This document shows positions 196-10,038 of a stretch of DNA of 10,696 nt, in pieces (the stretch's first letter is position 1; the number at the start of each line of letters is the position of its first letter). The notes under the pieces are model-generated. The model saw only the letters and a program-made list of their open reading frames with translations. It ran no database searches and was not told where the DNA came from. Both the position numbers and the translations under genes were made by a program. Origin of the DNA: an archaeon (GTDB lineage Archaea > Hydrothermarchaeota > Hydrothermarchaeia > JALTZZ01 > JALUTC01); assembly GCA_027051265.1 (NCBI GenBank), contig JALTZH010000196.1, forward strand, positions 1 to 10,696, in the 5' to 3' direction.

Positions 196-224
196 ATTTA
201 AATTTTTATTTCTCTCAATTTTAA
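196..224 (+). terminator. T-rich putative terminator after glnA
   Basis: Just past the glnA stop the plus strand becomes T-rich, with a TTTTT run at 203-207 and further T clusters up to 224. Archaeal RNA polymerase commonly stops at such U-tracts without a hairpin. The element lies inside the 3' end of the convergent pstA gene. It is a composition call in an AT-rich genome, so it is weak. Confidence 0.35.
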
Positions 225-1070
225 TCTTATAGGTATAAATATTAACAAATATATTAAAAGTAGGAGAAGTGCAGCACCCCAAGCTATTTGATGATAATTC
301 TCATAAGGTTGTTGAACCAAATTATATATTAATAGTGGTATAGCACCTATTGGTTTATCTATTCCTTCAAAAAATACCCGTGTAGAACCACCAATCGTAA
401 AGAGAAGTGGTGCTGTTTCACCCGCTGCTTTTGCCATTCCTATTAGAATCCCAGTTAATATGCCTCTTCTTGCAATCTTAATCAAAACTCTGAAGATTAC
501 TTGAGACTTTGTTAATCCTAAACTATAAGCTGCCTCTTTATAGTCTTTTGGAACCTCTCTTAAAGCTTCTTCTGTAGCTATTGCAACATATGGCATTATT
601 ATAATCGCAAGAGCAAAAGCTCCAGCTATTGCAGAATAAGTACCAAGTGGTACTACAACAATATACATTGCAAACAATCCTACTAAAATTGTTGGAAATT
701 CCATCATTATCTGTAGTAGCAATTTGGTCCCCCTACCTATAAAACTATTGGGATACTCATATGCAAAGATTCCAGCTATTACTGCAATCGGTATTCCAAG
801 AATCGATGATAAAAACACGAGTAAAAATGTTCCAACAATTGCTGGTCCTATACCACCTAACTCTTGACCAGGTGGTGGTAAAGTTCCGGTTAAGAAATCT
901 ATACCTCCTTTAATTAAAACAGGAAAACCTTTCACGAACACACTTATCAATATATGAAACAAAGGCAGTATTGTTAAAAAAGATAATATAAAAATAGTTA
1001 TCAGGAAAATTTTTTCCTTTAATTTTCTTTTATTCGTTATAATATTCATTTTTATTTTAGAACGTTTCAT
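198..1070 (-). CDS. pstA: Phosphate ABC transporter permease PstA
   Basis: One of the two membrane subunits of the PstSCAB phosphate importer; with PstC it forms the channel through the cytoplasmic membrane. The 290-residue protein is mostly hydrophobic, with membrane segments near residues 20-46, 75-104, 116-141, 143-165, 201-220 and 267-283. The EAA loop that docks to the ATPase is clear at 169-190 (EAAYSLGLTKSQ), and MAKAAGETAPLL near 212-223 is a PstA hallmark. The ATG at 1070 lies inside the end of pstC (14-base overlap) and follows a strong ribosome binding site, AGGTGGAGAT, at 1071-1080, which fixes this start over the internal ATG at codon 8. It is the last gene of the pstS-pstC-pstA operon. 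The expected pstB does not follow: the next gene is the convergent glnA. Confidence 0.95.
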   Translation of the reverse strand: MKRSKIKMNIITNKRKLKEKIFLITIFILSFLTILPLFHILISVFVKGFPVLIKGGIDFLTGTLPPPGQELGGIGPAIVGTFLLVFLSSILGIPIAVIAGIFAYEYPNSFIGRGTKLLLQIMMEFPTILVGLFAMYIVVVPLGTYSAIAGAFALAIIIMPYVAIATEEALREVPKDYKEAAYSLGLTKSQVIFRVLIKIARRGILTGILIGMAKAAGETAPLLFTIGGSTRVFFEGIDKPIGAIPLLIYNLVQQPYENYHQIAWGAALLLLLIYLLIFIPIRLKLREIKI

Positions 1071-1968
1071 ATCTCCACCTTTTCAATATGTATAATGCTA
1101 AAATATTTATTACTAAACCTATAAAGAAAAGAGATAGTCCAGCAGCAAATAATGCTGAGACCATATATTCGTAGATGAACGCATTACCGAATTGATTTGC
1201 TATGAGTGAAGAAATCGTATATCCAGGAGCAAATAAACTGATATCAATATTAAACGTATTTCCTATAACTAAAGATACCGCAACCGTTTCACCAATTGCT
1301 CTTCCAAAAGCAAGAATTGTACCAGCAACTATTGCGGGTTTTATATATTTTATCAGTACTTTAGTAGCTTCATATCTTGTAGCTCCTAGAGAATATAAGC
1401 CCTCCTTATATGTATGAGGTATCATTCTATATGCTTCTCTTATAATTGCTGTTGCAAAAGGTGTAACCATAATTCCAAGTAAAACACCAGCGGATAGATA
1501 ACTGAAACCTGTTGTTGGTGGATAAGAGAATAGAGGAATAAACGAGAAATTTTCGTATAAAGGTTCCATTATATATTTCTTTAAGAATGGAACTAGTATA
1601 AATGCACCCCATATTCCATAAAGAATTGTTGGTAATCCAGCCATTATATCACTAGCTATTATTAGCCATTCTCTAATTTTACGAGGAGCATAATCCACTA
1701 TGAATATAGCATAAGAGATGGATAATGGTAAAGCTATTAAAATTGCAATTACAGAAGTATAGATACTTCCATATATTGCTGCCAATACACCGTAGAATTC
1801 TTCTTCAGGAACTTCAGCAGCATTCCAAACATTTGTAAAATATATCGCTAATCCTTCCTTTTCAAATATTTTTAAAGAGTTTATAAAATAGACTATAAGC
1901 ATCAATATGAAAATTCCAAAAACTAAAGATGTAAAAGGAAGAAGATATAATTTAAATTTATCTTTCAT
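1057..1968 (-). CDS. pstC: Phosphate ABC transporter permease PstC
   Basis: Partner of PstA in the membrane channel of the high-affinity phosphate importer. The 303-residue protein has about six membrane segments (near 8-30, 60-90, 97-129, 154-177, 212-236, 270-296) with an outside loop between the first two, as in PstC. The EAA docking loop runs from residue 189 (EGLYSLGATRYEA), followed by FGRAIGETVAV at 221-231, the PstC counterpart of the PstA signature. The ATG is two bases after the TAG of pstS (TAG, GG, ATG), so its translation is probably coupled to pstS; the only ribosome-binding-like bases overlap that stop codon. Length and motifs fit an intact gene. Gene order and the distinct signatures separate it from PstA with confidence. 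Confidence 0.95.
   Translation of the reverse strand: MKDKFKLYLLPFTSLVFGIFILMLIVYFINSLKIFEKEGLAIYFTNVWNAAEVPEEEFYGVLAAIYGSIYTSVIAILIALPLSISYAIFIVDYAPRKIREWLIIASDIMAGLPTILYGIWGAFILVPFLKKYIMEPLYENFSFIPLFSYPPTTGFSYLSAGVLLGIMVTPFATAIIREAYRMIPHTYKEGLYSLGATRYEATKVLIKYIKPAIVAGTILAFGRAIGETVAVSLVIGNTFNIDISLFAPGYTISSLIANQFGNAFIYEYMVSALFAAGLSLFFIGLVINILALYILKRWRYETF
1071..1080 (-). promoter_or_regulatory. Strong ribosome binding site for pstA
   Basis: Read on the minus strand the bases before the pstA ATG are AGGTGGAGAT, a close match to the archaeal anti-16S consensus GGAGGTGA. The site lies within the last codons of pstC and decides the pstA start at 1070. It contrasts with pstS, the operon's first gene, which has no such site. 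Confidence 0.75.
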
Positions 1969-1970
1969 CC

Positions 1971-3047
1971 CTATTCAATTATTTCTGCTGCTTTTAGTCC
2001 AAGTTCTGCTATTCTCGTAGGTAGAGAGACGTATCCTGTTACGATGTATTTATCCTCTTGACCTTTTGTCATGATCCATCTTATGAAATTCTTTATAACT
2101 TCTGCTTTTTCGTCAGGATAATCTTTCCAGACAATCATATGACTGAAAGCAACTATAGGATAAGAGTTCTTACCCTTAGCATTTAAGAACATCTCTACTT
2201 TTTCCTCATATCCTCTTGTTATATCTGGTACAAATGCGGCAACGTTTTCCATCGCCTCCTTTATGGTATCTTTATTTGGTTTAACAAAGTTTCCTTCTGC
2301 ATTCTCGATATAAGCGATTTGTAAGTTCTCTTTTATTGCATAAGCTAATTCAACATACCCAATAGTATAAGGAGTTTGCTTCAATATTGCAACTACGCCT
2401 TGATTTCCTCTACCACCTAAACCTCTTCCCAATTTATCAACCGGCCAATCAACAACTTTTCCAGAACCAACTTTTTTCTTCCATTCATCGCTTATTAAGC
2501 TTAGATATGTTGTAAACACTTCTGTAGTACCACTACTATCACTTCTATGAACTACAATGATTTTTTCATGTGGTAGATTTTTATCGGGATTTAATTCCTT
2601 TATTCTCTTATCATCCCAATATTCAATTTTTCCTAGAAATATATCAACCAATACGTCTTTACTCAACTTTAAATCATCAACACCGGGGATATTATAAACT
2701 ATAGCAATCGCTCCTACTATTATTGGAAACTGTAAAACTTGTCCTTTCTTTTCAAGTTCTCTCCATAAACTTTCTTTTACAGGAGGGTCACTCAACGCAA
2801 AGTCAACTAGTCCCTTTTTAAAGTCGTTTAATCCTTTACCACTACCACCACCGTAGTATTCAATTTTCACGTTAGGATATTCTTTCATGAACTCTGTTAT
2901 CCATTTTTCAAGTTGAGGTTGTGGAAAAGTTGCACCACTACCCGAGATTGTTATGTATTTTTTTTCTTTCTCTGCACACATTGGTAGTAGTATAAGGATA
3001 GAAAGTATTAGTAGCAATGAAAGCTTAAACCTTTTATTAGCCATCAT
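1971..3047 (-). CDS. pstS: Phosphate-binding lipoprotein PstS
   Basis: Extracellular phosphate-binding subunit that delivers phosphate to PstC/PstA. The 358-residue protein starts with a basic patch and a hydrophobic stretch (residues 7-22) ending in a lipobox-like LPMC, so Cys24 probably becomes the lipid anchor on the outer face of the membrane. The mature part has PstS motifs: GSGATFPQPQ just after the anchor, ALSDPP in the first lobe, the phosphate-contacting RSDSSGTTEVFT in the middle, and GNQGVV near the hinge. Two ATG codons stand at the start (3047 and 3044); either is possible. There is no ribosome binding site, and a TATA-like box about 28 bases upstream suggests a leaderless message starting at or near the ATG. 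It is the first gene of pstSCA and is divergent from the AbrB-PhoU regulator, so phosphate-dependent control from the shared region is likely. Confidence 0.95.
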   Translation of the reverse strand: MMANKRFKLSLLLILSILILLPMCAEKEKKYITISGSGATFPQPQLEKWITEFMKEYPNVKIEYYGGGSGKGLNDFKKGLVDFALSDPPVKESLWRELEKKGQVLQFPIIVGAIAIVYNIPGVDDLKLSKDVLVDIFLGKIEYWDDKRIKELNPDKNLPHEKIIVVHRSDSSGTTEVFTTYLSLISDEWKKKVGSGKVVDWPVDKLGRGLGGRGNQGVVAILKQTPYTIGYVELAYAIKENLQIAYIENAEGNFVKPNKDTIKEAMENVAAFVPDITRGYEEKVEMFLNAKGKNSYPIVAFSHMIVWKDYPDEKAEVIKNFIRWIMTKGQEDKYIVTGYVSLPTRIAELGLKAAEIIE

Positions 3048-3135: not shown

Positions 3136-4128
3136 ATGGAATATAGGAAGATTTTTTTAAGTGGGAAGGCTAGCTATATTATCTCTCTACCAAAAAGATG
3201 GATTAAAAGAATGCAGTTAAAACCAGGAGATTTAGTTATTGTTGAAGAAGAGAACTCAAAACTCATAATTTATCCAAAAGAAGTAGGTATAAGATATGAT
3301 AAAGAAGTTTCAATAAGTGTTAAAGATTATGACATGGAAAATATTTTGAGAGAAGTAATTGCTTATTATCTCTCTGGAGTAAATAAAATAAAAGTAGATT
3401 TCAGCGAATTAGATAGAAAAAACGATGTTAAAGATTTCCTAAGAAAAATACCTCAAAGATTAATAGGAGTAGAAATTTTGGAGGAATATGAAAATTATAT
3501 ACTATTTGAAATCGTTTTGGATGATAACAGGTTGAAGATAAATGAAATCCTAAGAAAAATGGCCACAATCATTAAATCAATGTTGCAAGAATTAAAAGAA
3601 TCCTTAAGCGAAAGTAATAATGAAACCGTTAGAGATATATTAAGTAAGGAGAATACAGTTGATAAATTATACTTTTTACTTGTAAGAAAGATAAAAACCC
3701 TATTAAATCAAGGAGGAAAGGATGAGGTGGAAGATTTAAGGGATTTGCTTGGTTATAGAATTGTAGCCAAAAGCCTAGAAAGGATAAGTGATCATATTGA
3801 AAACATTTCGAAAAGTTTATTAAACTTAAAGGAAATGAGGTATAGCGTATCGAATGATATAAAAGAAATAATTTCAGATGTAATAACCATATATGAAAAA
3901 ACTATATCTTCTCTACTAATAAAGCAGATAAATGAAGATATATTTAAGACGTGTTACAATCTAAAAATGAAATGTGATGAAATAATATTGAATGTTGGTT
4001 GTGAAAATAAAACTGAAATGATTAACGTTACAATGATTATCTATAGTCTTAAAAGAATAATAAGCTATCTAACGGATATTGCAGAAATCTCACTAAATAT
4101 TTCAATCAATAAAAAATTGAAAGATTAG
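3136..4128 (+). CDS. AbrB-PhoU phosphate uptake regulator
   Basis: Archaeal relative of PhoU with a DNA-binding head, expected to tie pst expression or transport to phosphate supply. Residues 1-48 form a SpoVT/AbrB swapped-hairpin domain (YIISLPKRWIKRMQLKPGD, then VIVEE and LIIYPKE strands). A linker of about 80 residues follows, then a helical PhoU-like region from about 130 to 325. The first PhoU repeat is well kept, with ENTVDKLYFLLVRKI near 172-186 and the metal-binding ExxxD as E215-RIS-D219, followed by HIENI. The matching site of the second repeat (306-319, KRIISYLTDIAE) has K and S where the acidic pair should be. The gene is divergent from pstS across 88 bases and is probably leaderless. 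A paralogue-like role outside phosphate control is possible, but the neighbourhood supports phosphate. Confidence 0.88.
   Translation: MEYRKIFLSGKASYIISLPKRWIKRMQLKPGDLVIVEEENSKLIIYPKEVGIRYDKEVSISVKDYDMENILREVIAYYLSGVNKIKVDFSELDRKNDVKDFLRKIPQRLIGVEILEEYENYILFEIVLDDNRLKINEILRKMATIIKSMLQELKESLSESNNETVRDILSKENTVDKLYFLLVRKIKTLLNQGGKDEVEDLRDLLGYRIVAKSLERISDHIENISKSLLNLKEMRYSVSNDIKEIISDVITIYEKTISSLLIKQINEDIFKTCYNLKMKCDEIILNVGCENKTEMINVTMIIYSLKRIISYLTDIAEISLNISINKKLKD
4111..4116 (-). terminator. Possible U-tract terminator after the KorB-like gene
   Basis: On the minus strand a run of six T (AAAAAA on plus) lies 14 bases past the TAA of the KorB-like gene, inside the 3' end of the convergent AbrB-PhoU gene. 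With the T-run on the other strand the two transcripts would overlap at their ends. The run is short, so confidence is low. Confidence 0.3.
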
Positions 4129-4129
4129 A

Positions 4130-5107
4130 TTATTTATTCTTTTTTTCAAAAATTCTTCTTTCAATTTCAATTACTTCTTTTTCTTCTTCTATCATCCTTC
4201 TTATAATCGGTGAATGAAGCTTTTCAATTACTTCAAGTAATTTCTTATCTTCTTTTATCTCTACTTTTCTCTTAATCATTTTATGTTCGGTAATCTCTAC
4301 TTTTTTCTTATCTTTAGTAAGTCCCATTAATCTCAACAACCCTGGTCTATCTCGATCAACATATTCTCCTATAATTATTTTATCGGATAGATCAATTCCT
4401 TTCTTCTCTAATTCAACAGCTTCATGAATCGATATTATACGATCTTTTATCCAATTTAACATGTCTATAGGTTTTGATAGCTTATTTCTCTTCCCAAGCC
4501 CAGTGACACATTGTGTAATAACTTCTATGTAAGATAGACCTTCTTTAAATAATGCCTTTTTAATGCATTCTTTTATTAAATCTGGTGTTAATATCGTATA
4601 TCTTGCAACATAATTCGCTCCAGCTGCTACTGCGAGTTTACATAAATCGAATGGTGGTTCATAATTTCCATAAGGTGTCGTTGTCGTTCTTAAATCTTTA
4701 AACGTTGTAGGTGATACTTGACCTCCTGTCATTCCATAGTTAAAATTATTAGCACATATTATAACTAAATCAATGTTTCTTCGACATGCGTGTATAAAAT
4801 GATTACCACCTATTGCTGCTAAGTCACCATCTCCAGTTATAACGATAACTTTTAACTCCGGATTTGCAAGCTTTATACCAGTAGCAAATGCAACAGCTCT
4901 TCCATGTGTTGTATGTAAGGAGTCAAGTCTAACATAACCAGGTATTCTAGAGGAACATCCTATCCCAGACACTAATACGACTTTATCCAGATCTATATTG
5001 CTTTCATCCAATGCTTTTAGTAATGAATACATTAACGTTCCTAATCCACATCCATCGCAAAATATCGTTGGAAATCTCTCAAGTCTTAATAATTCCTCTA
5101 CCTGCAT
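4130..5107 (-). CDS. 2-oxoacid:ferredoxin oxidoreductase beta subunit (KorB-like)
   Basis: Beta subunit that holds thiamine diphosphate and one 4Fe-4S cluster in enzymes that oxidise 2-oxoacids, probably 2-oxoglutarate, to acyl-CoA with ferredoxin as acceptor. Numbered from the ATG at 5107 (325 residues), the cluster cysteines known from archaeal OFOR structures are all present: C17 and C20 (FCDGCG), C51 (GIGCSS) and C200 (TQCVTG). The cofactor site shows GDGD at 92-95 and NNFNYGMTGGQ at 120-130. The SGIGCSSRIPGY and TLHTTHGRA-type block (here SLHTTHGRAVAFATG) is KorB-like rather than PorB-like. A TTG at 5116, overlapping the PAC2 stop, would add three residues, but AGGTTGA at 5114-5120 is better spaced for the ATG. 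The last 45 or so residues form a long, highly charged, probably helical tail. No alpha or gamma subunit gene is in the window; the cotranscribed partner is a PAC2 protein. Confidence 0.88.
   Translation of the reverse strand: MQVEELLRLERFPTIFCDGCGLGTLMYSLLKALDESNIDLDKVVLVSGIGCSSRIPGYVRLDSLHTTHGRAVAFATGIKLANPELKVIVITGDGDLAAIGGNHFIHACRRNIDLVIICANNFNYGMTGGQVSPTTFKDLRTTTTPYGNYEPPFDLCKLAVAAGANYVARYTILTPDLIKECIKKALFKEGLSYIEVITQCVTGLGKRNKLSKPIDMLNWIKDRIISIHEAVELEKKGIDLSDKIIIGEYVDRDRPGLLRLMGLTKDKKKVEITEHKMIKRKVEIKEDKKLLEVIEKLHSPIIRRMIEEEKEVIEIERRIFEKKNK
4131..4148 (+). terminator. T-rich putative terminator after the AbrB-PhoU gene
   Basis: Directly after the TAG at 4126-4128 the plus strand reads TATTTATTCTTTTTTTC, including an unbroken run of seven T, typical of archaeal U-tract termination. 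It lies within the last codons of the convergent KorB-like gene. Confidence 0.5.
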
Positions 5108-5112
5108 ATTTT

Positions 5113-5922
5113 TCAACCTATATATGGTAGAAATTCACCTTCCCTACTTGGTTTGAATTCTCTTATTATTCTTCTCGTATATTCCTCAGATTCTCTTAAC
5201 TCTCTTTCATAATCTTTAATTTGTTTATCCAGATCACTTGTATCTATATCCTCGATCTTCAATATTCGTGCTAAAGTTAATAACGCTGCTTTTGCTGCCT
5301 TTGGATCTGGGCCTGTTCCTGATGTCTCTCCTAACAAACAAATCGCAAATTTACCGTTTTTTGAAGCCATTGCAACAAGAATTCCAGCTAAACCAGTTAC
5401 TCCCAGAACACCTTCAGGTACTTTTAATAGTTCAACGTTTTCCCTGATTAATACTTCCTTTGCTTTTTCATCAGTAGCTACACCGAAAACCTTTGGCTTA
5501 TCAGGTACATAATTTACACCATAGCCTCCAATTGTATATATTTCGTTTATGTTAAATTCATCACAAAAGTCTAATATAGTATTTGCGATATCGAAATAAC
5601 TCTTAGGATCTACTCCTTGATATAAACCTGAAAGAATAAATATGTCATACTTTTCGGAATAATAAATTTCGTTTTTAGATAAATCAGCAATATGATTTTT
5701 ACCGAAGACAATTCCGGGAAGCATTGCACCTGGGTATAAAAAATCCGGACTATACATTTCAGCAATTTTCTTAGCATTTAGACTCTTTATAAGTTGTTTG
5801 CCAGCTAGATAACCAACATGTCCAACACCAAGTAATCCTTGAACAAGTTTTGGATTTCTAACTTTTGGCTTTTCATTTACAAATATAATTGTTGTTTTAG
5901 ATAATCTAAATTTTCTATTCAT
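5113..5922 (-). CDS. PAC2-family protein (proteasome assembly chaperone-like)
   Basis: Member of the PAC2 family, whose eukaryotic and some archaeal members help assemble or bind the 20S proteasome; many archaeal members have no known role. The 269-residue length is normal. Family landmarks are the GVGHVGYLA turn at 32-40 after the first strand, the FILSGLYQG block near 95-103, IGGYGVN at 131-137, GVLGVTGLAGIL at 171-182, CLLGETSG at 195-202 and the DPKAAKAALLTL helix at 206-217. The last 50 residues are charged and helical. There is no signal peptide, so it should be cytoplasmic. It is followed at once by the KorB-like gene (stop and possible TTG start overlap by four bases), which implies cotranslation. 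A leaderless start at 5922 is plausible. A role in building the oxidoreductase rather than the proteasome is possible but unproven. Confidence 0.82.
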   Translation of the reverse strand: MNRKFRLSKTTIIFVNEKPKVRNPKLVQGLLGVGHVGYLAGKQLIKSLNAKKIAEMYSPDFLYPGAMLPGIVFGKNHIADLSKNEIYYSEKYDIFILSGLYQGVDPKSYFDIANTILDFCDEFNINEIYTIGGYGVNYVPDKPKVFGVATDEKAKEVLIRENVELLKVPEGVLGVTGLAGILVAMASKNGKFAICLLGETSGTGPDPKAAKAALLTLARILKIEDIDTSDLDKQIKDYERELRESEEYTRRIIREFKPSREGEFLPYIG

Positions 5923-5948: not shown

Positions 5949-6593
5949 TTAATAAATTTCAACATTATAAACAACATCTGATTCGATTAATTCCTTTCTT
6001 AGCTTTTCCAATCTCCTCCTATTAATATGGATTAAAGCTTGCCATTGTCCCTTTCCTTCACCGATACTTGTTAATGTTCCAGAAATTATATTTCCACCGT
6101 TTTTTGCTATTATTGAACATACTTTTGCCAATGATCCAGGTTTATCTTCTAAAATTACTCTTACCTCATGCATGTTCTCGCTACGTAGAATTTCATGCTC
6201 AACCCTTGGTGGATAAAATCTTAATACCAATAGTAAAGCTAGAATCAATACAGCAGCTGAGATAGCATTGATTAAGAGAGTCTCGTTGAATTCTATAAAA
6301 AGAATATGTCTGCAAACCGCAATCATAACGGCAACAACAACACCTCTGAGATAGAATGCTCTCTTTGTTATAAACGTTATTAACGTATCTGCTAGTTCCA
6401 GAATAATCATTATGAGTAAGACATCTCCAAGCAATAATCTAACATCACTTTCTGTTAATTTTATTTCTATTACTGGATAAATTCTTGATGTTAATATTAG
6501 CATAAGAAGCATTGCTAGAAAGATAAGTATTATTACAATTAAATATCGTACCATGTCCAAAAATTTTGAAATTCTTTCAGCAAACCTATGCAT
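5949..6593 (-). CDS. PsiE-like membrane protein fused to an ACT domain
   Basis: A two-part protein of 214 residues from the ATG at 6593. The first part has four hydrophobic segments (about 15-36, 52-75, 82-100, 104-125) and resembles the phosphate-starvation-inducible PsiE family: LLLGDVLLIMIILELADTLI in segment 2, then VAVMIAVCRHILFIEF in segment 3, matching the family's LxLLELxDT and AVxRxxxxxD-like blocks. The second part, 141-214, is an ACT domain with the ligand-loop motif LEDKPGSLAKV and the GGNIISGTL strand, facing the cytoplasm. ACT domains usually bind amino acids or similar small molecules. A GTG at 6608 would add five residues, but GGTGA at 6596-6600 fits the ATG better. The ATG overlaps the stop of the GPN GTPase by eight bases. 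The function is unknown; a membrane sensor is an inference. The PsiE match is by eye. Confidence 0.7.
   Translation of the reverse strand: MHRFAERISKFLDMVRYLIVIILIFLAMLLMLILTSRIYPVIEIKLTESDVRLLLGDVLLIMIILELADTLITFITKRAFYLRGVVVAVMIAVCRHILFIEFNETLLINAISAAVLILALLLVLRFYPPRVEHEILRSENMHEVRVILEDKPGSLAKVCSIIAKNGGNIISGTLTSIGEGKGQWQALIHINRRRLEKLRKELIESDVVYNVEIY
5951..5958 (-). promoter_or_regulatory. Possible TATA box of the PAC2-KorB pair
   Basis: On the minus strand AATTTATT (5958-5951) is centred about 32 bases before the PAC2 ATG and sits over the last codons of the PsiE-ACT gene. The 26-base gap before PAC2 holds no ribosome binding site, only TTAATTAATTAA-type bases, which fits a start of transcription close to the ATG. 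If real, PAC2-KorB is a separate transcript unit from the genes upstream. Confidence 0.35.
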
Positions 6594-7278
6594 AGTCACC
6601 ACATACACAAGAAATTTCGTATAACATGTTTAGCAAATCATCGTATCCTTCTTTTTTTATATTTGATACGTATATATCTCTAACTGGTATTTTAAATTCA
6701 ACAAAAATATCTTCCAATTTTTTATAAAGTTCTTCGATCATACCTTCTTCCTCTTCAGTTTTCATCTTAATCATATCACTTTTTGAGATAATGGAAAACG
6801 ATTTTATATCATACTTCAAATATATTATAATATTAAATAACTTTGATAAAAGAAATTCTTTTTTTGAATATTTTTCACCATCCAATAAAAATATCACAAC
6901 CGGTTGTCTTAATATTTTTGAAAATATTTTCAGAAACTCATGAAATAATACAATTTCCAATTGTCCAGATGTATCTATTATGCAAAAATCATTATCAAAG
7001 GATATCTTTCTTATAGCATTTAGGACATTTCTTCTCTTAAGCAGTTCCTCATATATCTTTATTATCGCACCATTTGGTCCAAGTTTGTTTTCCTGCATGT
7101 ATTTTAAATAGTTAAAATATTTTCTTATATCAAAATCTGGGGAATAAGGTAAATAGGTTGCTGCTGGATCTAAATTTATAATTTTGCATGTATATCCTCT
7201 TTCAATTAAATATTTAGAAAAATTGGCAGCAAGTGTAGATTTTCCACTTGCAGCACTACCAATTAGTATTAAATCCAT
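6586..7278 (-). CDS. GPN-loop GTPase
   Basis: Member of the GPN-loop family of dimeric GTPases. Eukaryotic members help assemble RNA polymerase; archaeal members are single-gene relatives with poorly known roles. The 230-residue protein has all family motifs: P-loop GSAASGKST at 7-15, LDPAA at 36-40, the defining GPN at 67-69 within LGPNGAI, the G3/Walker B-like DTSGQLE at 102-108, and a G4-like SKSD at 165-168 in place of the more usual NKxD/SKxD forms. No membrane segment is seen. It starts 28 bases after the secretion ATPase stop without a clear ribosome binding site, and its end overlaps the PsiE-ACT start by eight bases, so those two proteins are probably made together. At 230 residues it is slightly shorter than typical members of about 250. 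The assignment is secure; the cellular job is not. Confidence 0.93.
   Translation of the reverse strand: MDLILIGSAASGKSTLAANFSKYLIERGYTCKIINLDPAATYLPYSPDFDIRKYFNYLKYMQENKLGPNGAIIKIYEELLKRRNVLNAIRKISFDNDFCIIDTSGQLEIVLFHEFLKIFSKILRQPVVIFLLDGEKYSKKEFLLSKLFNIIIYLKYDIKSFSIISKSDMIKMKTEEEEGMIEELYKKLEDIFVEFKIPVRDIYVSNIKKEGYDDLLNMLYEISCVCGDYA
6596..6600 (-). promoter_or_regulatory. Ribosome binding site deciding the PsiE-ACT start
   Basis: GGTGA on the minus strand, two bases before the ATG at 6593, matches the 3' part of the archaeal GGAGGTGA consensus. Nothing similar precedes the in-frame GTG at 6608. The site lies inside the last codons of the GTPase gene, consistent with coupled translation. Confidence 0.5.
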
Positions 7279-7306: not shown

Positions 7307-8920
7307 TCAGCTTTTCGTTACCAATTTTATTATAGCATCTCTGTTAATATAAAATCGTTTTATAAATTCTGCAACTCTGTCAAATTCTAATATTCTATTC
7401 TTAAGCATAAAATCGAGTATTTTTTTTCTCAACTCAACTTCTTCCCAGAATTCTGCTTCGTTTAGTAAAAATTTGGATTCTCCTCTTATTGCAATTATTT
7501 TCGGTATCTTTTCACTTCTACCAGTTAAATCAATACTATCCACATCAGGCTTCCATGAGAATACATCACTTCTAATAATCTTTCCATCTGTTGTTACATC
7601 GACGATTTCTGTAATAGATAAAACTCTTCTAGCAGGTTTTTCATGGACCTTTGTATGTGTTAAAAATACAACTAAATCTAATGCTGATAATAAGTTTACG
7701 GGTAAGTTTATTGGAGGCGTTGTTAATCGGTTTATAAGTTCATCTATATTTTCAGCGTGTATCGTTGCCATTCCACTATGACCGGTTGCCATTCCTTGAA
7801 ATAGAACATAAGCCTCTTGTCCTCTAACTTCTCCAACTATTATATAGTTTGGTCTTGCTCTCAATGCGGATTTAAGAAGATCGAACATATCAACTTCACC
7901 GAATTTTTTTCCTGTTACATCTTTTGGACCATAACCAGGTCTTGCAATCCATTGACTCCAATGTTCGTGAGGAAGATTGAGTTCCGGCGTATCCTCTATA
8001 GATATTATTTTCATTTCCGGTCTTATAAACAACGAAACAACGTTAAGAAACGTCGTCTTTCCTGTAGCTGTTCCACCAGATACTAGTATTGATGCACCAT
8101 ATTCTACAGCTATCCATAAATATGCTAGTGCATAACTTGATACCGTTCCATTTGCTATTATTTCTATAGGAGATAAGGGAACCTTTCTAAATTTTCTAAT
8201 CGTGAAGCTTGATCCTTTCTTCGAGATATCAGAGCCAAGTATTGCTTGAACACGATCTCCTGTTGGTAATGAACCATCGAGTAATGGTTCTGCTAAAGAT
8301 ATATGTCTATTACACCATTGTGCCAGTTTAATTACAAAGGATGCTAGATCTTCTTCATTTTCAAAGAGGATGTTTGTTTTAAGATAACCATAATTTTTAT
8401 GATATACATATATAGGAACACCAGCACCTACACAACTTATGTCTTCTATACTCTTATCTAAAAGTAGCGGATTTATTTTATCATATCCAAGTATATCTCT
8501 ATAAATATAATACATTATTTTATCCAATGAATCTTTAGTTAGATTGATTTTTAATTTTTTAACTAATTTCAAAACAAATTCCTTTATGTAGTTTTTAGCA
8601 ATACCTTTTTCTTTCAATTCTGTGATATCATATTCTATCTGATTTATTAAATGCTCTTTTAAAGTTTTTAGTACTTGTTTTTCTCTTTCAGTTAATTTTG
8701 GTTCAATAACTATATAGACCAACGATCTTTCGGATGGTTCATATCTTATATTAGCAAAACAGTATGGAGGTTCTATCGGATAAGTTATGTTTAACAATCC
8801 CTTTTCAACCTTTTTTTCTTCAACAACAAAACTCTCTTTTTTTATTTTATTACTTAACTCAAGCAATTTGTTACTTATATTTCTTCTTTTAATTTTCCTA
8901 AAGATATCGATTAAGGCCAT
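7307..8920 (-). CDS. Type II/IV secretion (pilus/archaellum-type) ATPase
   Basis: Hexameric motor ATPase of the GspE/VirB11/ArlI superfamily that powers assembly of type IV pili, archaella or related secretion machines from the inner face of the membrane. Of 537 residues, about 1-130 are an N-terminal charged region, 130-260 the conserved N-terminal ATPase lobe (DGSLPTGDRVQAILGS near 215-230), and 270-450 the catalytic lobe. Walker A is GGTATGKTT at 282-290, the Asp box is ISIEDTPEL at 306-314, Walker B is YIIVGEVRG at 359-367 with E364, and the His box is MATGHSGMATIHAE at 377-390. All catalytic parts look intact. The ATG at 8920 overlaps the HtrA stop by ten bases. No ArlJ/TadC-type membrane partner or pilin gene is in the window, so which surface structure it serves cannot be told. 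Confidence 0.92.
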   Translation of the reverse strand: MALIDIFRKIKRRNISNKLLELSNKIKKESFVVEEKKVEKGLLNITYPIEPPYCFANIRYEPSERSLVYIVIEPKLTEREKQVLKTLKEHLINQIEYDITELKEKGIAKNYIKEFVLKLVKKLKINLTKDSLDKIMYYIYRDILGYDKINPLLLDKSIEDISCVGAGVPIYVYHKNYGYLKTNILFENEEDLASFVIKLAQWCNRHISLAEPLLDGSLPTGDRVQAILGSDISKKGSSFTIRKFRKVPLSPIEIIANGTVSSYALAYLWIAVEYGASILVSGGTATGKTTFLNVVSLFIRPEMKIISIEDTPELNLPHEHWSQWIARPGYGPKDVTGKKFGEVDMFDLLKSALRARPNYIIVGEVRGQEAYVLFQGMATGHSGMATIHAENIDELINRLTTPPINLPVNLLSALDLVVFLTHTKVHEKPARRVLSITEIVDVTTDGKIIRSDVFSWKPDVDSIDLTGRSEKIPKIIAIRGESKFLLNEAEFWEEVELRKKILDFMLKNRILEFDRVAEFIKRFYINRDAIIKLVTKS

Positions 8921-10038
8921 GGTCTTTCGCCAAGTTTAACTTTAACATTATAATATTTACCTTCCCTATAGTATCTTATGTTTATTACATCACCAGGTTT
9001 TTTGGAGAGAATATAATCAACAAGATCATCAGCTGTTAATATTCTTTTACCATCAATTTCAGTAACAATATCTCCAAGAAATATTCTTCCATTAATCATC
9101 CTAGTTCCTCTAAGACCAGCTTTCTCAGCTGGACTGCCTTTTGCAACATCAATTATTAAAGCACCTTTAACTTTTAAATCGATATCGTAATATCTGAAGA
9201 AATCCGTAGATGTTACAACGGTAACACCTAACCATCCTCTTAAAACTTTTCCATACTTTATTATATCGTTGACAACTCTTTTGACCAAATTTATTGGAAT
9301 TGCAAAACCTATACCTTCAAAACCACCACTTGTTGTAAATATTGCAGTATTAATTCCTATGACTTCACCGTTTAGATTTATTAACGGCCCTCCGGAGTTT
9401 CCAGGATTTATAGCTGCATCTGTCTGAATAGCATTTCTTATTTTGTAATTTTCGAACGTTTGTAAAGTTCTATTTAATCCAGAGATTATTCCTTTAGTTA
9501 CAGTAAATTCTAACTGATATGGATGACCAATTGCAAGAACTGGTTGTCCAACTTTAAGTTTACTTGAATCACCAAGTCTTGCAGGTTTAAGATTTCTTGC
9601 GTTTATTTTAAGAACAGCTATATCGGTTATTGGATCGGAACCAATTAATTTGGCTTCATATTCTTTTTTATCATAGGTTGTTACGATGAATTTTTTACCA
9701 CCTGCTATTACATGATGATTTGTGACTATATAACCATTCCTACTTATTATTACTCCAGAACCAGATGAAATAGATTCCGTACTGAAAAAACCCTCTCCAG
9801 CAGTTTTATAAACCTTTATATGAACAACAGATTTTCTAACGTCTTCTATTATATCATATAAATAATCAGATTCAGATTTGTTAACGTAGACGATTTCACG
9901 TATGATTTCCTTCTCGATTGATGTTTCATACGATGGATTTATAAACTTAAATTTTACTTCAGTTAATACAAATGAGAATAGAAAAGAGAATAATACGATA
10001 AAAAATAAATTTATGAGAAAATATTTCCAAACCTTCAT
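8911..10038 (-). CDS. HtrA/DegP-type serine protease with PDZ domain, membrane-anchored
   Basis: S1C-family trypsin-like protease expected to degrade or refold damaged proteins outside the cytoplasmic membrane. The 375-residue protein begins with one hydrophobic segment (about 5-26) that acts as signal anchor or signal peptide, followed by a charged linker to about 60. The protease domain spans about 65-260 with the full catalytic triad: H109 in TNHHVIAG, D139 in TDIAVLKI and S215 in NPGNSGGPL. One PDZ domain covers about 268-370 (LRGWLGV, SPAEKAGLRG, LGDIVTEIDG). A good ribosome binding site, GAGG at 10043-10046, precedes the ATG, which overlaps the DUF59 stop by four bases (ATGA). It ends inside the start of the secretion ATPase gene. 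This arrangement suggests a role in quality control at the envelope, perhaps of exported subunits, by inference. Confidence 0.93.
   Translation of the reverse strand: MKVWKYFLINLFFIVLFSFLFSFVLTEVKFKFINPSYETSIEKEIIREIVYVNKSESDYLYDIIEDVRKSVVHIKVYKTAGEGFFSTESISSGSGVIISRNGYIVTNHHVIAGGKKFIVTTYDKKEYEAKLIGSDPITDIAVLKINARNLKPARLGDSSKLKVGQPVLAIGHPYQLEFTVTKGIISGLNRTLQTFENYKIRNAIQTDAAINPGNSGGPLINLNGEVIGINTAIFTTSGGFEGIGFAIPINLVKRVVNDIIKYGKVLRGWLGVTVVTSTDFFRYYDIDLKVKGALIIDVAKGSPAEKAGLRGTRMINGRIFLGDIVTEIDGKRILTADDLVDYILSKKPGDVINIRYYREGKYYNVKVKLGERPWP

Follow-up and report, generated by a model that had tools for sequence, protein, structure and literature searches.

The gene at positions 5949..6593 on the minus strand of the window (the whole stretch of 10,696 nt analyzed here, contig JALTZH010000196.1 of an archaeon of the Hydrothermarchaeota) encodes a protein of 214 aa in which a PsiE membrane domain and an ACT domain are joined, a domain architecture that is certain, and the resulting fusion is real, rare, and conserved in two distant archaeal lineages. 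The reading frame extends from an ATG at 6593 to a stop codon that ends at 5949, with an in-frame GTG upstream, at 6608, as an alternative start that would add five residues, and the gene is found at 100% identity in a second public contig, WAOB01000099.1. The PsiE family (PF06146) matches the protein with 36.7 bits (E 5.6e-9, curated cut-off 23.9), and the ACT family (PF01842) with 39.7 bits (E 4.2e-10, curated cut-off 27). No NCBIfam model spans its full length, and the best of them, that of the archaeal ACT protein PRK08577 (NF006352), reaches 38.8 bits against a cut-off of 140, in a match confined to the ACT part. A preliminary description of this DNA had located the frame and its conserved blocks correctly, and had seen in it a membrane protein with an ACT domain and no assigned role; the Pfam comparison that it called for places both families over their curated cut-offs, the fusion of the two known families is a rare combination not covered by any curated family, and ligand sensing by the ACT domain, as proposed there, is probable.

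The archaeal census of the fusion that had been suggested covered about 1,000 distinct genomes in partly overlapping samples, judged by the ranges of the matches and the lengths of the frames, which were in part also read. The fusion was found in five species of the two lineages, namely that of the window and four that belong to a single genus of a different phylum, and all five proteins match both Pfam families. Within the phylum of the window, a PsiE is present in 13 of 23 genomes and its fusion to ACT only in the genome of the window. A search of 394 archaeal genomes recovered full-length relatives, with 24–27% identity, in three genomes of the other genus, which also encode a separate, stand-alone PsiE, and a profile search of the phylum of this second lineage added the fourth, while in further archaeal phyla, sampled with 227, 29, and 392 genomes, each match covered only one of the two halves. 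In a tree of the PsiE domains, a single clade of fusions is not rejected (AU p 0.39), and one or two origins are both compatible with the data. A tblastn search for PsiE on plasmids returned cyanobacterial records only.

The PsiE domain lies at 6225..6542 on the minus strand (residues 18–123). The four membrane segments noticed earlier are recovered both as four hydrophobic segments predicted from the sequence and as four helices in an AlphaFold model (residues 2–44, 48–77, 82–99, and 106–126), which are followed by a linker helix (130–140) and then by the ACT domain; this model was built with 47 PsiE-family sequences from the loci fetched in this analysis and has a pLDDT of 88.9, against 69 with the five fusions alone. 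Common to the PsiE family (PF06146; E. coli PsiE, B. subtilis YrkR) are the four helices, with an acidic residue in helix 2 and a basic one in helix 3. This charged-position criterion was derived here from the alignment of 47 sequences, where position 66 is acidic (E or D) in 44 and position 95 basic (R or K) in 46. The two conserved blocks, GDVLLIMIILELADTLI and AVCRHILFIEF, hold the corresponding residues, E66 in helix 2 and R95 in helix 3. Of all charged positions in the alignment, these two are conserved best; they are kept in all five fusions and may pair inside the membrane. As the number of helices is even, and both the N-terminal segment and the loop between helices 2 and 3 are positively charged, the two termini of the protein are probably in the cytosol. 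Most of the archaeal PsiE frames found are of stand-alone size, whereas that of the window adds a cytosolic ACT domain; Methanosarcina acetivorans, with a match to PF06146, is one example of an archaeon that has a stand-alone PsiE. To our knowledge, a biochemical activity is known for no PsiE protein.

The ACT domain (5988..6170 on the minus strand, residues 142–202), described earlier as complete, passes the Pfam cut-off and shows the beta-alpha-beta-beta-alpha-beta fold in the model. Structure searches with the models of the fusion, in which relatives of the membrane part were sought as well, gave match lists filled by ACT-domain matches. For the ACT part of the 47-sequence model, the best were regulatory subunits of acetohydroxyacid synthase (Z 12.7, rmsd 2.1 over 80 residues), with the serine-responsive ACT domains of Ser33 and PGDH at Z about 11–12, and in Foldseek, with the first model, valine-bound IlvN was the first match. 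The loop of the form DKPG.L...NI can be aligned with structurally characterized ACT proteins, and none of the ligand-loop residues D150, G153, and N168 varies among the five fusions. With the acetohydroxyacid synthase regulatory subunit and PGDH, the fusion has in common the ACT fold, the glycine loop, and the asparagine of the ligand site, but in those proteins the ACT domain controls a soluble enzyme, whereas in the fusion its partner is a membrane module. The ACT domain is predicted to be likely to bind a ligand, for which an amino acid is plausible, and the nutrient sensing contemplated in the preliminary description would be, from the subtype of the domain, a sensing of amino acids. As a separate observation, in two other loci (L163 372-3182 and L164 336-3139) a PsiE gene lies directly upstream of the gene of the acetolactate synthase large subunit, followed by that of the ACT-bearing small subunit (by Pfam in L163), which the ACT domain of the window resembles.

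The fusion gene is the sixth of eight minus-strand genes that are separated by gaps of 28 nt or less or by small overlaps. The order of this directon is a 105-aa protein, a DUF59-like protein (named by reading its sequence), an HtrA/DegP-like protease with Trypsin_2 and PDZ domains and a hydrophobic N-terminal segment (8911..10038), an archaellum/type IV filament ATPase-like protein (7307..8920; best NCBIfam match FlaI, 424.8 bits, cut-off 550), a short paralogue of the GPN-loop GTPases (6586..7278), PsiE-ACT, a PAC2-family protein (5113..5922, next downstream after a gap of 26 nt), and, last, a 2-oxoacid:ferredoxin oxidoreductase beta-like protein (4130..5116). In a genome of the same genus (G022), the first five genes are kept, and the contig then ends inside the GPN gene; as this assembly is also without PAC2, its lack of PsiE-ACT carries no weight. 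The ATPase-like gene is conserved there together with GPN and HtrA. The surroundings of the fusion differ in the second lineage, with unrelated genes for a DUF1786 protein, a DnaJ-like protein (from reading the sequence), or an ABC-2 permease, and across archaea no convincing recurrent neighbor of PsiE was found except PsiE itself. Near the PAC2 gene of another genome (G021; L096 5900-12001), several frames contain short peptides that recur, a pattern suggestive of a CRISPR-like repeat array.

The protease of the directon offers a lead to the output of PsiE-ACT. The genome of the window has one Trypsin_2 match and one PsiE match, which are found 2.3 kb apart on the same strand of one directon, and the chance of a same-strand htrA this close is about 0.3%, a rough post hoc estimate that assumes one htrA in a 1.46-Mb assembly of 257 contigs, 95% complete. 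In four species of a genus of the same class (G006, G007, G008, and G010), the stop of htrA overlaps the start of psiE by 4 nt (the loci, listed by their own numbers, are L139 6758-8406, L159 7752-9421, L160 8231-9891, and L161 2990-4653), and in G009 the order is the same, also with overlapping frames. Genes of the HSP20 type accompany the pair in three of the four species: the two that adjoin it in G007 are HSP20 by Pfam, the neighbors in G008 and G010 read as the same proteins, and the ORFs called beside it in G006 are different. In terms of loci, two small-heat-shock-type genes stand beside htrA-psiE in L139, L160, and L161, and are confirmed as HSP20 by Pfam in the last. Bacterial heat-resistance islands (TLPQC/LHR) likewise carry sHsp20, PsiE, HtpX, and DegP (PMC5347186, PMC7685784), and the PsiE and DegP encoded by an island have been detected in E. 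coli by proteomics (PMC7010813), so that the company of psiE with degP and small heat-shock genes is common to these islands and to the same-class relatives of the archaeon of the window, with the difference that no ACT fusion is described in the islands. In the window, this pairing takes the form of one directon with two genes between its members; no hsp20, clpG, or ftsH was recognized among its ORFs, in a contig of 10.7 kb that is shorter than an island. Given that no HtrA lies near the sampled archaeal PsiE loci outside the phylum of the window, the link between HtrA and PsiE is suggestive only, and in the same measure the gene neighborhood favors protein quality control over phosphate.

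If these lines are taken together, the explanation that we consider best as a whole, and which we put forward tentatively, is that a cytosolic amino acid gates PsiE-ACT, which would be a membrane regulator with an output linked to HtrA. The ACT domains would pair and bind the amino acid at their dimer interface, a branched-chain amino acid or serine being the most likely candidates, and the linker helix 130–140 would pass the state of the ligand on to the membrane module. With less assurance, the PsiE module may act on the quality control of membrane or envelope proteins together with the HtrA/DegP of the same directon, in which case envelope proteolysis would follow the supply of amino acids and not that of phosphate. 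Against this explanation, no PsiE is known to have a biochemical activity, and the link to HtrA was noticed after the fact and does not extend to the second fusion lineage. Two other genes stand between PsiE-ACT and HtrA, so that the directon may be no more than a run of housekeeping genes. The loop that would bind the ligand is also changed in the other lineage (D-K-P-G in the protein of the window, D-E-V-G there), and ACT domains can be ligand-free dimerizers.

This last property leads to the alternative that the ACT domain is a ligand-free module that only dimerizes or anchors the membrane protein, a reading we find doubtful yet deserving of consideration. Divergent ACT-like domains have been described, among them the C-terminal domain of mycobacterial MgtC (by the title of Yang et al., 2012, as cited in PMC4469704), and 2lqj is among the top structural matches of the first model; however, D150, G153, and N168 are retained despite an overall identity of only about 25% to the other fusions, which speaks against this reading. 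MgtC itself (PMC4469704) has the same overall layout as the fusion, that is, a hydrophobic N-terminal part and a soluble, ACT-like C-terminal part, and the latter domain was the fifth-best match of the first model in Foldseek. The protein could on this basis be an MgtC-like regulator, a small membrane protein whose cytosolic ACT-like tail tunes a membrane complex, for instance an ATP synthase or a transporter, but its membrane part is PsiE, a family different from that of MgtC, and the profile of the MgtC membrane domain finds no match in the fusion proteins at E up to 1, so that such a role seems to us very improbable.

Two further alternatives look to the neighboring genes. That the GPN GTPase and PsiE-ACT work as a single module, in which the ACT protein might, for instance, recruit the GTPase to the membrane, would agree with the 8-nt overlap between the 3′ end of the GPN gene and the fusion gene, and with the nature of this GTPase, a divergent second copy of GPN in its genome. 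The coupling with the GTPase raised in the preliminary description holds to this extent in the window, but no GPN adjoins the fusion in the second lineage; moreover, the GPN paralogue stands without PsiE in G021 and G015, within the phylum the linkage is not kept in the genomes that allow a test, and in G022 the neighbor that is conserved is the gene of the ATPase, the assembly stopping short of the downstream side. We therefore give this module a small chance. On the GPN gene itself (6586-7278), it may be added that it is a short copy, with the canonical GPN elsewhere in the genome, and that similar second copies are found in G021 and G015. As for phosphate, the family owes its name to the fact that phosphate starvation induces PsiE in E. 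coli, and pstS, pstC, and pstA (198..3047 on the minus strand, named from reading the ORF translations) and phoU are situated 1.8–5.8 kb from the fusion gene, and on these grounds PsiE-ACT could work with the nearby Pst/PhoU and report phosphate status. But the pst genes, even if on the same strand, constitute a different transcription unit, because between them and the directon lies the plus-strand gene (3136..4128) of a PhoU with an N-terminal MazE/AbrB-type DNA-binding domain, convergent with the end of the directon. When the ORFs in stretches of 5–19 kb flanking about 40 further PsiE loci of archaea, among them those of the second fusion lineage, were compared with the pstS, pstC, pstA, and phoU of the window (E 1e-6, with pstB outside the query set), no homologue appeared, and a general linkage of PsiE to Pst/PhoU was rejected. 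As the ACT subtype also resembles amino-acid binders, a phosphate role for PsiE-ACT is unlikely, and a partnership with Pst/PhoU in particular is one to which hardly any weight can be given.

Returning to the amino-acid-gated regulator, the ACT domain is accompanied by a second type of sensor on the PsiE module. In three genomes of the same class, a protoglobin and PsiE form one protein of 300 aa (L008 1483-2394 on the minus strand, and also L009 and L010), which in G006 matches PF11563 with 89.8 bits and PF06146 with 70.9 bits, the other two copies being alike by sequence. As in the fusion of the window, a soluble sensor is joined to the PsiE membrane module, with the difference that the protoglobin is N-terminal and the ACT domain C-terminal, and consequently two kinds of sensor are found on this module in related archaea; a literature search for PsiE joined with ACT or globin gave no relevant paper. 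It could be imagined, although we think it unlikely, that archaea use PsiE as a general output module in the membrane and would swap its sensors, with ACT responding to amino acids and protoglobin to gas or redox, so as to set HtrA-dependent quality control of envelope proteins.

As far as we know, no function has been attributed to PsiE in the decades for which it has been known. The sensor fusions, and the company of HtrA and small heat-shock proteins in some archaea and in the bacterial islands, give a testable direction, in which PsiE would respond to signals as a membrane component of protein quality control, and the ACT fusion provides a soluble handle for finding the signal of PsiE and a useful pointer to its role.
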